64,000 nt of DNA from Myxococcus stipitatus (GTDB lineage: Bacteria > Myxococcota > Myxococcia > Myxococcales > Myxococcaceae). A model generated the notes under the pieces. That model worked only from the letters and a program-made list of their open reading frames with translations. It ran no database searches and was not told the origin of the DNA. The position numbers and the translations under genes were made by a program. Where the stretch lies: assembly GCF_037414475.1 (NCBI RefSeq), contig NZ_CP147913.1, forward strand, positions 9,558,501 to 9,622,500. Reading direction: 5' to 3'. Numbering within the stretch: position 1 is the first letter of the stretch; the number at the start of each line of letters is the position of its first letter. Below are positions 42,460-46,417 of this stretch, piece after piece.

Positions 42460-42984
42460 TCAGCCCCGGCTGAGCAGGTGGGTCATCCGGGTGTGGAGGT
42501 CAACGAGCACGTCTTCGTGCTCGCGCAGCAGGGCCACCGTGGTGTCTCCGTACCGGCGACCCAGGGCGTCCGTCTCCCGCTCCTGGCTGGCCAGCTCCCC
42601 CCGGATTCGCGGTCGGAGCTCCTCCGCGCGGGCATCCGAGGCGCCTTCGAGCTGCCTCAGCTTGTCCTGGAGCTTGCGCACCGTCCAACGCCGGCCCCCG
42701 AAGGCGCGCAGCAGGGCGATGCCCCGCTCCGCCGTCAGGGGCTCCAGCTTGGAGGCCTCCAGGGCGCGGGTGTGTGCCTGGGCCACATCGATGGCGCCCG
42801 TCCCTGCTTCCGCGTCCGCCAGGAAGGCCCGCTGGTAGGACATCAACGCGTCCAGGAGCGCACGGTCCAGGACCAGCGAGGCCATCCGGAGGGTGCGGTC
42901 ATCCGCCGCGGACAGGTTCGAGCCCCGGGGCTCCACGTTCCGGACATCCTGGAAACCATTGTCGTCAAAGAAGTCAGAGGGCAT
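42460..42984 (-). CDS. Conserved hypothetical, helical
   Basis: A 174-residue acidic protein beginning MPSDFFDDNGF, rich in Ala, Leu, Arg and Glu, with long predicted helices and heptad-like spacing in its C-terminal half. There is no signal peptide and I recognise no domain. The ATG at 42984 is preceded by AGGACACGCG, a good ribosome-binding site, so the longer upstream open frame is not used. It lies 73 bases upstream of miaB on the same strand. Confidence 0.75.
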   Translation of the reverse strand: MPSDFFDDNGFQDVRNVEPRGSNLSAADDRTLRMASLVLDRALLDALMSYQRAFLADAEAGTGAIDVAQAHTRALEASKLEPLTAERGIALLRAFGGRRWTVRKLQDKLRQLEGASDARAEELRPRIRGELASQERETDALGRRYGDTTVALLREHEDVLVDLHTRMTHLLSRG

Positions 42985-43167
42985 CGCGTGTCCTGGTGTC
43001 GGGGCCCGCGTCTCTAACAGGCCCGGTCCGCGCAAGGTAGGCTTCACTGCGTGTCCAATCGGGCGGCGGACGGAACCCAGGAACGCTGGAGGCCCAGGAG
43101 GCGGTGGGAGGGCTGGAGCGGTTTCGCTCACGCCAGGCGAGCTTCCAGGCGGTAGCGTAGGCGTCGC

Positions 43168-44580
43168 ATGAGACGACCCGTGGGAATCGATCTGTTCGCG
43201 GGCGCGGGAGGCATGAGCCTGGGGTTTGAACAGGCCGGTTTCGACGTGCGCGCGGCGGTCGAGGTGGACCCCGTCCACGCCGCGGTCCACACCTTCAACT
43301 TTCCGGAATGGGCCGTCCTCCCTCGCTCGGCGGCGGAGGTGACGGCCGCCGACATTCGCGCGGCCGCGGGGCTGGGCAAAGGGCACGTGGACTGTGTCTT
43401 CGGGGGACCGCCGTGCCAGGGCTTCTCGCTGATGGGGCAGCGGGCTTTGGAGGACCCGCGCAACGGGCTCGTCCTGGAGTTCGTGCGGCTGGTGGCCGAA
43501 CTCGAGGCGCGCACCTTCGTCTTCGAGAACGTAAAGGGCCTGACGGTGGGGAACCATCGGAGGTTCCTCGACGAGCTCGTCCGAGCCTTCGACGACGTGG
43601 GGTACGAAACGCGGATGCCGTGGCAGGTGCTCGATGCCGCGTCGTACGGCGTGCCCCAGCACCGGGAACGCTTGATTCTGATGGGCGTGCGAAAGGGCGG
43701 CACCCTCCCCCGCTATCCCGCCCCCACGACGACGCCCGCCGACCAGGAGCGGGACTTGCTGGCTCCTCCTGGGGGCCCCACGTGCCAGGACGCGCTGGGA
43801 GACCTGCCGGACGCCGATGGGTTCGAGGCGTTGATGGAGGGTGACTCAGTGGAGGCCGCGCGCGCGCGGAAGCCGAGCCGCTACGCCGCCCAGCTCCGCT
43901 GTCTGTCCGAGGAGGACTGGCACCTGGGCTACATGCGGCGCTGGGATCCGAGCCTCCTCACGTCATCCTGGCGGACCACGCACACTCCCCTCTCGAGGCG
44001 GCGGTTCGCGGAGACAGCTCCAGGGGCCACGGAGCCCATCTCGCGCTTCTACAAGCTTTCACCCGAGGGCTTGTCGAACACGCTGCGGGCGGGGACGGAT
44101 GGGGCTCGAGGAGCCTTCACCTCCCCTCGCCCGATTCATTACGAATACGCGCGCTGCGTGACGGTGCGCGAGATGGCGCGCCTGCATGGCTTCCCCGACT
44201 GGTTCCGCTTCCAGGGGACCAAGTGGCATGGGGCCCGGCAGATTGGGAACGCGGTGCCCCCTCCGCTGGCCCGGGCCATCGCCACGGAAGTGGTCTCGGC
44301 GCTGCGGCTCAAGCCTTCGCGTCCCGAGCGCATCCTGGACCTGGGCGACACCGCCCTGCTCTCCATGGACGTCTCCGAGGCGGCCCGGCACTTCGGTGTC
44401 GAACCGCCCCGGGCCTCGAGAGACAGGAAGAGCGGCCAGCGCAAGCGCAGCCAGCATGAAACGGAGGCGGCCCGATTGGCCGCCATGGAGGAGGCCCATG
44501 GTCAAAGCCGCGACCGGAGCGAATCGCTACCAGTCCCTCATCGAGAGAATCTTCCTCGACCGGTTCAAGCGCGGGGATGA
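43168..44580 (+). CDS. DNA (cytosine-5)-methyltransferase (Dcm type), apparently intact
   Basis: A 470-residue C5-cytosine methyltransferase. The motifs appear in canonical order: SAM site DLFAGAGG (residues 8-15), catalytic GGPPCQGF with Cys83, ENV at 120-122, QHRER at 164-168, then a variable target-recognition region and motif X GNAVPPP. It modifies DNA in a sequence-dependent way; the specificity cannot be read. A C-terminal extension of about 80 residues, basic and helical, follows motif X. The last 83 bases overlap the endonuclease reading frame. The two plus-strand genes interrupt a run of minus-strand genes, consistent with acquisition of a restriction-modification cassette. Confidence 0.93.
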   Translation: MRRPVGIDLFAGAGGMSLGFEQAGFDVRAAVEVDPVHAAVHTFNFPEWAVLPRSAAEVTAADIRAAAGLGKGHVDCVFGGPPCQGFSLMGQRALEDPRNGLVLEFVRLVAELEARTFVFENVKGLTVGNHRRFLDELVRAFDDVGYETRMPWQVLDAASYGVPQHRERLILMGVRKGGTLPRYPAPTTTPADQERDLLAPPGGPTCQDALGDLPDADGFEALMEGDSVEAARARKPSRYAAQLRCLSEEDWHLGYMRRWDPSLLTSSWRTTHTPLSRRRFAETAPGATEPISRFYKLSPEGLSNTLRAGTDGARGAFTSPRPIHYEYARCVTVREMARLHGFPDWFRFQGTKWHGARQIGNAVPPPLARAIATEVVSALRLKPSRPERILDLGDTALLSMDVSEAARHFGVEPPRASRDRKSGQRKRSQHETEAARLAAMEEAHGQSRDRSESLPVPHRENLPRPVQARG

Positions 44581-45012
44581 CCAGGTCAACTTCGACCGGG
44601 AGGACCAGGTCTCCGCCGCCGAGCAGATGGGCGGCGACCTCCCCAAGAACCTGGGCGACGTCATCTACGCCCTCCGCTATCGCATTGGCATGCCTGACAG
44701 CATCCTGGAGACGCAGGCGCCAGGGCTCGAGTGGGTCATCGAGGGCGTGGGCCGAGCATTCCAGTGCAGGCCAAGGGCGGTTCCGACCAGAACAGCGTGG
44801 TCCAGGCGAAGCAGGACCTCACCTGGTGCGAACAGCGCTTCCCCGGCATGAAGGTCCGGGCAATCTCCGCGCAGTTCATGAGCGACGAACGGGTGGCCCT
44901 GTTCGAACCCGCCGTCGCGGACGACATGGTCAAGGTCGTCGAGGAGCACCACTACCGTCTGGCGCGCGCGGCGGACCTGAACCGGGAATCGGTCTTGAAG
45001 TACCGCCCGTGA
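44498..45012 (+). pseudogene. Restriction endonuclease remnant, internal deletion plus frameshift
   Basis: The frame from ATG 44498 encodes an N-terminal piece (MVKAATGANRYQSL to LEWVIEGVGRA, about 87 residues) that matches, from memory of the family, the start of the type II endonucleases paired with Dcm-type enzymes. It then goes out of frame near 44757 and stops at about 44852. The next frame, from about 44759 to 45012, encodes the family's C-terminal piece starting IPVQAKGGSDQ and ending at VLKYRP. The intervening segment, including the region normally holding the IDELY-type acidic catalytic residue, is missing. Intact relatives are, as I recall, close to 300 residues; only about 170 remain. 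The enzyme should be dead. Confidence 0.85.
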
Positions 45013-45019
45013 GCCCGCC

Positions 45020-46417
45020 TCAGGCCGGGACGAGCTGGTCTGCGATGCGGGCGAGGTCGGAGACGGAGGTCACCACCACGGCCTGGTGGCAGTGCTTCTC
45101 GTAGGTGAGCATCTCGCTGTCGCCAACGCCCCAGTTGCCCCGGTCCTCGGGGCAGATCCACAACACGCGCTTGGCCTTGCGGCGCAGGTCCTTCAGGGCC
45201 CAGACGTTGTTGGCGTTGTAGTTGTTGCGCCCGTCGCCAATGACCATGAGGGTGGTGCGGCGGGTGATGCTGCCCAGGTGGTCCCGGGTGAAGTCGGCCA
45301 GCGCTCGGCCATAGTTGGAGTTGGCGCTGAGCGACACCGTCTTGCCCGCCGTCGCCATGTCGATGGCCTCGTCCACGTCCAGGTCCTTGAAGTACTGCGT
45401 CACCTCGCCCACGTCGGACACGAAGACGAACGAGCGCACGCGCACGAACAGCGACTGCATCGTGTGCATGAACAGCAACATCATCCGCGACGCGTTGCGG
45501 ACCGAGTCGGACACATCGCACAGCACCACCAACTCCGGGCGCTCCGGGCGGCGGCTCTTGAACTGAGGCACCATGGGAACGCCGCCCCAGGTCATGTTCC
45601 GGCGCAGGGTGCGGCGCACGTTCAGCGCGCCCTTGCGGTGCGAGCGCTGACGGCGGATGAGCCGGCTGCGCAGCTTCTCCGCCAGGGTGCGAACAGCGGA
45701 CTCCATCTGGTCCACCTCCGCCTGGGAGAGCAGGTGCAGCGGCTTGTCCGCCACGGTGTCGGTGCGGCGACGGATGCGAGCCTCCGCCTGGCGCTTCACC
45801 TCCTGGCGCGCGGCGTCTTCAATCTTCCGCATGGCTGCGGCGACGTGGCGCGAGACAATCTCCACGCCCTCGGGAGCAATGCCCCGCGCGCGCAGCTCAT
45901 CCTCCAGGGACTTCATGTCGGAGCGAGCGCGCTCCATGCCCGCGCCCGCCAGAAGACGCCGAGCGAAGAAGCCGGCCTGAAGCGGGCTCTCCAGCCGCGA
46001 CATGTCCAACTGGAGTGACGCCATCCGGAAGATCTGCGCCAGCCGCGCCCGGTCGCCCTCGAGCACGGCCTGCGCCAAGGGGGACATCTCCGGCAGGAGC
46101 AGGTTCATCTGGAAGGTGACCATCTTGAGGATGTCCCCATCCAGATAGCCCTCTTCCTCGAGCTGCGCGGCCAGGGACTTGTCGATGGCCTCGAACGTCG
46201 CTGCCGCGCCGGAGAAGAAGAAGTTGAAGGCGCGGTTGAATGTGTCCACGTCCATCTCGCGCTTCACCAGCGTGGTGCGCAGCACCGCGCGGAACAGCTC
46301 GCGCTCGGTCAGCCCCACTTCGACGGTGGCCCGCAGGGCGTCCTGGACCTCGGACGTGCTCACGCGCACGCCGTTCTGTCGAAGCACCTCGGCGAACTCG
46401 ACGATGCGGGCGTCCAT
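45020..46417 (-). CDS. CoxE-like VWA domain protein
   Basis: 465 residues. The N-terminal two thirds are helical and charged. The C-terminal third is a von Willebrand factor A domain with a MIDAS motif DVSDS at residues 301-305. The layout matches the CoxE/YehP-like VWA family whose members commonly act with MoxR AAA+ ATPases as metal-insertion or complex-assembly chaperones; no MoxR gene is in the window. The stop lies seven bases from the end of the convergent endonuclease remnant. The start ATG is one base from the stop of the upstream RNA methyltransferase gene, so the two are translationally linked. Confidence 0.9.
   Translation of the reverse strand: MDARIVEFAEVLRQNGVRVSTSEVQDALRATVEVGLTERELFRAVLRTTLVKREMDVDTFNRAFNFFFSGAAATFEAIDKSLAAQLEEEGYLDGDILKMVTFQMNLLLPEMSPLAQAVLEGDRARLAQIFRMASLQLDMSRLESPLQAGFFARRLLAGAGMERARSDMKSLEDELRARGIAPEGVEIVSRHVAAAMRKIEDAARQEVKRQAEARIRRRTDTVADKPLHLLSQAEVDQMESAVRTLAEKLRSRLIRRQRSHRKGALNVRRTLRRNMTWGGVPMVPQFKSRRPERPELVVLCDVSDSVRNASRMMLLFMHTMQSLFVRVRSFVFVSDVGEVTQYFKDLDVDEAIDMATAGKTVSLSANSNYGRALADFTRDHLGSITRRTTLMVIGDGRNNYNANNVWALKDLRRKAKRVLWICPEDRGNWGVGDSEMLTYEKHCHQAVVVTSVSDLARIADQLVPA

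Follow-up and report, generated by a model that had tools for sequence, protein, structure and literature searches.

A 283-bp deletion in the endonuclease gene beside an intact methyltransferase gene at a type II restriction-modification locus of Myxococcus stipitatus

Introduction

Has a restriction-modification (R-M) locus of Myxococcus stipitatus lost its endonuclease while keeping its methyltransferase, and if so, how was this brought about? R-M decay is often invoked as the origin of solitary methylases. Loss of the endonuclease (R) is tolerated because the methyltransferase (M) still protects the DNA; if M were lost first the chromosome would be exposed to R. An extract of a pan-genome study (PMC4176335) presents in-situ R-M decay as a rare source of solitary methylase genes, and a second paper (PMC6471742), also in extract, cites work on orphan methyltransferases lying beside degraded endonuclease genes and calls the transition infrequent. 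Among the papers listed by searches of open-access full text, none was on the present R-M locus.

We have analyzed a stretch of 64,000 nucleotides of the M. stipitatus genome (the window). A preliminary description of the locus, made from its sequence, claimed that the R frame joins an N-terminal third directly to a C-terminal third, out of frame and without the central catalytic region, near position 44757, and that M keeps all its catalytic motifs. It went on to suggest that a selfish cassette had decayed to an orphan methyltransferase, which might mark the genome epigenetically or protect it against related elements. The features are collected in Table 1, and all positions are those of the window.

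Table 1. Features of the R-M locus and its flanks, with positions in the window.
Feature	Position	Strand	Basis
Flanking gene, begins MPSD, one side of the variable site	42460..42986	-	
M, C5-cytosine DNA methyltransferase, intact	43168..44580	+	Open frame, 470 aa
R N-terminal remnant, 86 codons, most of the predicted winged-helix part	44498..44755	+	PDLC03404 match
Deletion junction, 283 bp missing versus three sister genomes	44756..44758	+	DNA alignment
R C-terminal remnant, in a different frame from the N-terminal one	44758..45012	+	PDLC03404 match
VWA_CoxE gene (PF05762), second flank of the variable site	45020..46417	-	

Results

The intact pair occupies the same site in three sister genomes

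M was found in four of 96 genomes of the family at E ≤ 1e-60, the window's own included, and all four belong to one genus. In the three others (G061, G070 and G072) M has 92-93% amino-acid identity to that of the window and lies between the same flanking genes. Each has an open R of 265 codons that starts at GTG, where the window has ATG. Of the 96 genomes searched, 3/3 that carry M besides the window's own have an intact orthologous pair at the same locus. In the window there is no intact cognate endonuclease beside M, such as a complete type II R-M system has. Nor did a search of the whole genome with the R-family profile A1 (E ≤ 1e-10) find other copies of R, returning only the two fragments.

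The site itself (window 42987-45019; L041-L063) was compared in 27 genomes of the genus. The VWA_CoxE-like gene is present in 27/27, and the left side of the site is the MPSD gene, on the MiaB side. Four genomes have the R-M locus, nine have the two flanking genes adjacent without an insert, and nine have other inserts of 1.2-6.3 kb. In four of the remainder the left gene does not lie within 9 kb, and in one the contig is too short. With four R-M loci, nine empty sites and nine other inserts among 27, we conclude that the cassette sits in a variable intergenic site. For the nine other inserts only the frames were listed, and that the site is a defense hotspot we neither claim nor exclude.

The methyltransferase is intact and under constraint

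M matches PF00145 in a profile search (E 1.1e-62, residues 7-375, spanning the catalytic region) and the PADLOC cluster MTase_II PDLC03326 (E 4.1e-175). DLFAGAGG lies at residue 8, PPCQGFS at 81, ENVKGL at 120, QHRERL at 164 and GNAVPPPLA at 360, which we take to be the catalytic and cofactor motifs of the C5 methylase family. All of these strings are unbroken, and the M of the window retains 121/121 of the positions that are invariant among 28 other M sequences, a set from which L078 (a partial contig) and, by choice, L218 and L219 were left out. The earlier claim of an M with all its catalytic motifs thus holds. Leave-one-out controls gave no changes at the invariant positions for G061, G070, G072, L003 and L008, ten for L004, four for L084 and nine for L220. 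Over the first 442 codons of M the NG86 dN/dS is 0.079-0.098 between the window and its sisters and 0.080-0.102 among the sisters, so that the value for the window (0.08-0.10) is on a par with that among intact pairs. As judged by sequence and constraint, M is intact. A consensus scan of positions 42960-45100 revealed no promoters or terminators, a result of limited weight in an organism of this type.

The strong constraint on M across the four lineages and the retention of every invariant position tested might also be expected if M had been domesticated, that is, kept for a host function such as regulation or strand marking rather than being just a leftover. However, constraint of this degree is also to be expected as long as R is intact, and the break in R looks recent (see below). 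Most of the constraint measured may be older than the deletion, and it tells us little about later selection on M. Moreover, a gene present in only 4/96 family genomes at E ≤ 1e-60 is not one on which the family depends. We consider domestication of M unlikely.

The ends of the two genes share sequence. If R starts at 44498, M and R overlap by 83 bp (44498-44580) in different frames, and the tail of M seems to be overprinted on the start of R. An overlap of 8 bp is found in L003 and L004, the relatives on plasmids.

The endonuclease gene lacks 283 bp

On alignment with the three sister genomes, 283 bp of R are missing from the window. The junction lies at 44756/44757 or at 44757/44758, with a 1-bp ambiguity arising from a single C that fits both sides. 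DNA identity to the sisters is 243-244/258 to the left of the gap and 226-233/255 to its right. A loss of 283 bp exceeds 94 codons by one base and so puts the C-terminal tail out of frame. The N-terminal frame continues out of register until a stop that ends at 44851, for a total of 117 aa. The C-terminal remnant starts IPVQAKGG, in which the Q-x-K part of the predicted active site survives.

The same break is seen with the PADLOC cluster REase_II PDLC03404, to which the intact R of a sister (L005) aligns over positions 3-259 (E 5.4e-125). The N-terminal piece (44498-44755) corresponds to positions 3-81 of the 260 in the model (E 2.3e-28), and the C-terminal piece (44758-45009) to positions 177-259 (E 4.3e-30). 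Model positions 82-176 are absent from the R of the window. About 94 internal residues have been lost, and these include the predicted catalytic Asp. The preliminary description was accurate in its coordinates, in the two thirds that it recognized and in placing them out of frame, and the missing central region now corresponds to a frame-shifting loss of defined size. It had proposed that intact relatives be aligned to size the deletion and that an intact version be sought; the first gave 283 bp, and the second exists as the open R at the same site in three sister species (one genome per species compared). A ribosomal frameshift product would still lack the lost segment of R.

Among 26 R sequences, from which L009 (premature stop) was left out, the N-terminal piece retains 13/13 invariant positions and the C-terminal piece 20/21, the sole change being Leu to Pro. 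Going by these retained positions, the remnants look young. The dN/dS of the C-terminal piece is 0.085-0.117 between the window and its sisters, compared with 0.027-0.043 among the sisters. Where the N-terminal piece does not overlap M, the ratio is 0.144-0.405 between window and sister (on 3-6 synonymous differences), compared with 0-0.117 among the sisters. The direction of the change fits relaxed selection after a recent break. When the N- and C-terminal pieces are pooled and set against M, their surplus of nonsynonymous differences does not reach significance (Fisher P 0.17, 0.19 and 0.68).

Could the deletion be an artefact of assembly or sequencing, with R intact in the living strain? 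We have a single genome of the species, and a retention of 13/13 and 20/21 invariant positions is what would be seen with an artefact as well as with a very young break. On the other hand, the assembly is a single contig of 10,311,252 bases, and a gap of 283 bp is no homopolymer slip. There is no direct repeat in register with the ends of the gap in sister G061 that could have caused a collapse. The lost piece has not been misplaced in the assembly: with 282 bp from G061 as query the only match elsewhere in the genome was 30 bp at 90%. Finally, the C-terminal piece differs from the sisters by 7-8 nonsynonymous changes, compared with 1-2.5 among them. We regard an artefact as improbable, and a deletion in the living organism as the better reading of the gap.

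The deletion removes a predicted catalytic residue

Intact R has no match in Pfam or NCBIfam. We took the intact R of L008, an alphaproteobacterial relative, as the reference, and aligned to it 17 relatives encoded on viral contigs. The AF2 model of the L008 R has a mean pLDDT of 81.8 and a pTM of 0.74. With Foldseek it gave no match at E ≤ 0.001. With VIA-align, residues ~104-249 matched PD-(D/E)XK-type nucleases (EndoMS, Holliday-junction resolvases, SdaI and others) at Z 5-8 and residues 1-98 matched winged-helix proteins at Z 5.5-6.7; rows that score below 8 may reflect nothing beyond a common arrangement. The assignment of intact R as a winged helix joined to a PD-(D/E)XK nuclease is fair, not strong. 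We claim no specific fold family for R, given the Foldseek result and VIA Z scores below 8.

SdaI consists of a winged helix and a PD-(D/E)XK nuclease, and the model of intact R, with a winged-helix-like N-terminal part and a nuclease-like part, may share this architecture. The SdaI chain 2ixs_A matches the model with Z 6.0 over 109 residues at an rmsd of 4.0, although the match has 8% identity, covers the nuclease part only and has a Z no better than that of unrelated rows. SdaI was not one of the two hits of a PDB sequence search with R at E ≤ 1.

Within the L008 model, strands 159-163 and 165-170 flank the invariant D164, and the invariant Q182-A-K184 is part of strand 176-185. This is the layout of a D...Q-x-K active site, in which these residues would be catalytic. 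We infer the catalytic Asp from its conservation and from a predicted model with middling fold matches, rather than from a solved relative. The deletion spans approximately residues 85-178 of the L008 R, and so takes with it D164 as well as strand 85-92 and the beginning of the nuclease part. The Q-x-K strand survives, but out of frame.

The short form of R might be functional, either as the N-terminal winged-helix piece or as a two-piece R. In particular, an N-terminal fragment translated from the ATG overlapping M might regulate M or compete with it as a DNA-binding protein; if that were true the deletion would have turned an R-M pair into a methylase with a regulator, and not merely killed R. 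We find this very improbable: the ATG in place of the GTG of three sisters, the 13/13 invariant positions of the N-terminal piece and its winged-helix-like matches (model residues 1-98, Z 5.5-6.7) are set against the loss of the predicted catalytic Asp in any frame, the replacement of the strand at model residues 85-92 by 31 out-of-register residues, the sharing of the first 83 bp of the piece with the end of M, which would help to preserve them, and the long form of R in 26/26 sequences examined, a set not gathered by a search for short forms.

Relatives of the pair are found on plasmids and viral contigs

The PADLOC clusters matched by M and by both R pieces of the window, PDLC03326 and PDLC03404, also describe the type II R-M pairs of the three sisters, and homologous pairs lie on plasmids from Paracoccus (L003) and E. 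coli (L004). Gene order and the presence of a gene overlap are as in the window. The R of the window differs in lacking about 94 internal residues. The E. coli plasmid is mobilizable, with a name that includes KPC, and its R-M relative adjoins a gene annotated as a Tn4401-family resolvase.

A tblastn search with the C-terminal remnant found 65 plasmid records, 39 from Klebsiella and 17 from Salmonella, and 57 were typed mobilizable. Searching with M found 60 at E ≤ 1e-60. On viral contigs, 18/18 R loci also carry M, which in L078 is cut by the contig start; L086-L091 are second copies of viral contigs and were left uncounted. One viral contig (L073:18-884) carries, in addition to an M-R pair, another stretch that resembles R (30% identity) and, on the opposite strand, pieces that resemble M. 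Across 195 genomes of the phylum, profile A1 matched only the same four genomes.

In a small and biased set reached via M, each of L008, L220 and L221 has an undamaged R of the A1 family adjoining M. No R was detected in the flanks fetched around M in L010, L067 (from a Mycobacterium phage), L218 or L219. The more distant relatives of M, L011-L013 (26-31% identity), likewise had none detected beside them. R is lost or absent beside a retained M in other loci, and the case of the window is therefore not unique; no rate can be drawn from these loci.

Some of these loci have features of their own. An Albidovulum metagenome bin (L009:5319-5948) retains M, but its R is cut short by a stop codon right after IDEI, at the predicted catalytic strand; this may be another, independent loss of R or a sequence error. 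In a Rhodobacteraceae bin (L010:5264-6103, minus strand) a convergent gene faces M, with 22% identity to the L008 R and an EID...EAK pattern. It matches nothing in Pfam or PADLOC at E ≤ 0.1, and could perhaps be a swapped or very distant endonuclease. The M relative of the Mycobacterium phage Cueylyss (L067:2950-4269) has 56% identity, and might be a self-protection methylase of the phage. On the Bosea plasmid pBSY19_1 (L219:1992-3726) M adjoins a DUF262-annotated gene.

No recognition motif emerges from motif abundance and C-to-T changes

Motif abundance and C-to-T changes by motif were compared in about 400 kb around the locus. In the first round the carriers G000 (the window's genome), G061 and G070 were set against the non-carriers G058 and G059, and G072 was added in the second. 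Over 201 motif-positions in these ~400 kb, no motif had C-to-T changes raised in all carriers and clean in the non-carriers, and we name none. By abundance, CTGCAG, TGCA, CAGCTG and GATC were lowest in the three carriers relative to the non-carriers. A literature search for a characterized relative gave no specificity among the papers listed.

Individual motifs were rejected as follows. At position 4 of GATC 22 changes were observed where 4.3 were expected, but 14 of the 22 are in G061 and only five (1.8 expected) in the lineage of the window. Position 2 of CCGG is raised in carriers (79 vs 46.1) and also in the non-carriers G059 (19 vs 11.7) and G058 (16 vs 13.1). Position 4 of CAGCTG (10 vs 1.9) owes its excess mostly to G061 and G070. 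At position 1 of CCNGG (81 vs 52.1), 43 of the 81 changes are in G000 (23.3 expected), and non-carriers are raised too. GGNCC and GGWCC were tried as guesses based on methylase families; at position 4 (65 vs 45.7 and 45 vs 30.7, respectively) carriers are slightly raised, and the two non-carriers relatively more. GGNNCC showed no rise in the first round.

Separately, the C-to-T excess at the C of GATC in G061 (L097-L116) amounts to 14 observed where 1.5 were expected. This suggests a history of an m5C GATC methylase in the species of G061.

Discussion

Our observations support the description of the locus as one of dead R and intact M. The most probable explanation, to which we give a probability of about 0.9, is that a complete R-M pair decayed by a 283-bp deletion in R to a solitary, sequence-intact M. 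The ancestral state would have been a type II pair, M followed by an overlapping R that is a predicted winged-helix and PD-(D/E)XK (Q-x-K) nuclease. The pair, lying in the intergenic region that separates two conserved genes, was most likely already present in the common ancestor of the four sister species, an ancestry that we infer without a tree. In the lineage of the window, a single illegitimate deletion would then have occurred, recent relative to the split of the species and preceding any decay of M. By taking ~94 internal residues with the predicted catalytic Asp and putting the tail out of frame, it would have left R inactive. What remains is a solitary C5 methyltransferase, to judge from its sequence, that probably methylates its motif without accompanying restriction.

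In having an intact M beside a degraded R the locus resembles the solitary methyltransferases derived from decayed R-M systems in PMC4176335 and PMC6471742, as far as the extracts of these papers describe them. It differs from them in that the degraded and the intact states are both visible, at the same locus in sister species. It is a clear instance of a minority route, that from R-M decay to a solitary methylase. The decay with an intact M is real and well bounded, and as an event of a kind already known it is of modest interest. The R family has a PADLOC cluster and no match in Pfam or NCBIfam, and is therefore a candidate for ordinary biochemical characterization.

The locus is nevertheless of some value, because in-situ loss of R is reported, in those parts of the literature that we have cited, to give rise to solitary methylases only rarely. 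With the states before and after the event at one locus, and the break sized, the window and its sisters form a natural pair for methylome analysis and for following the evolution of M once restriction has gone.
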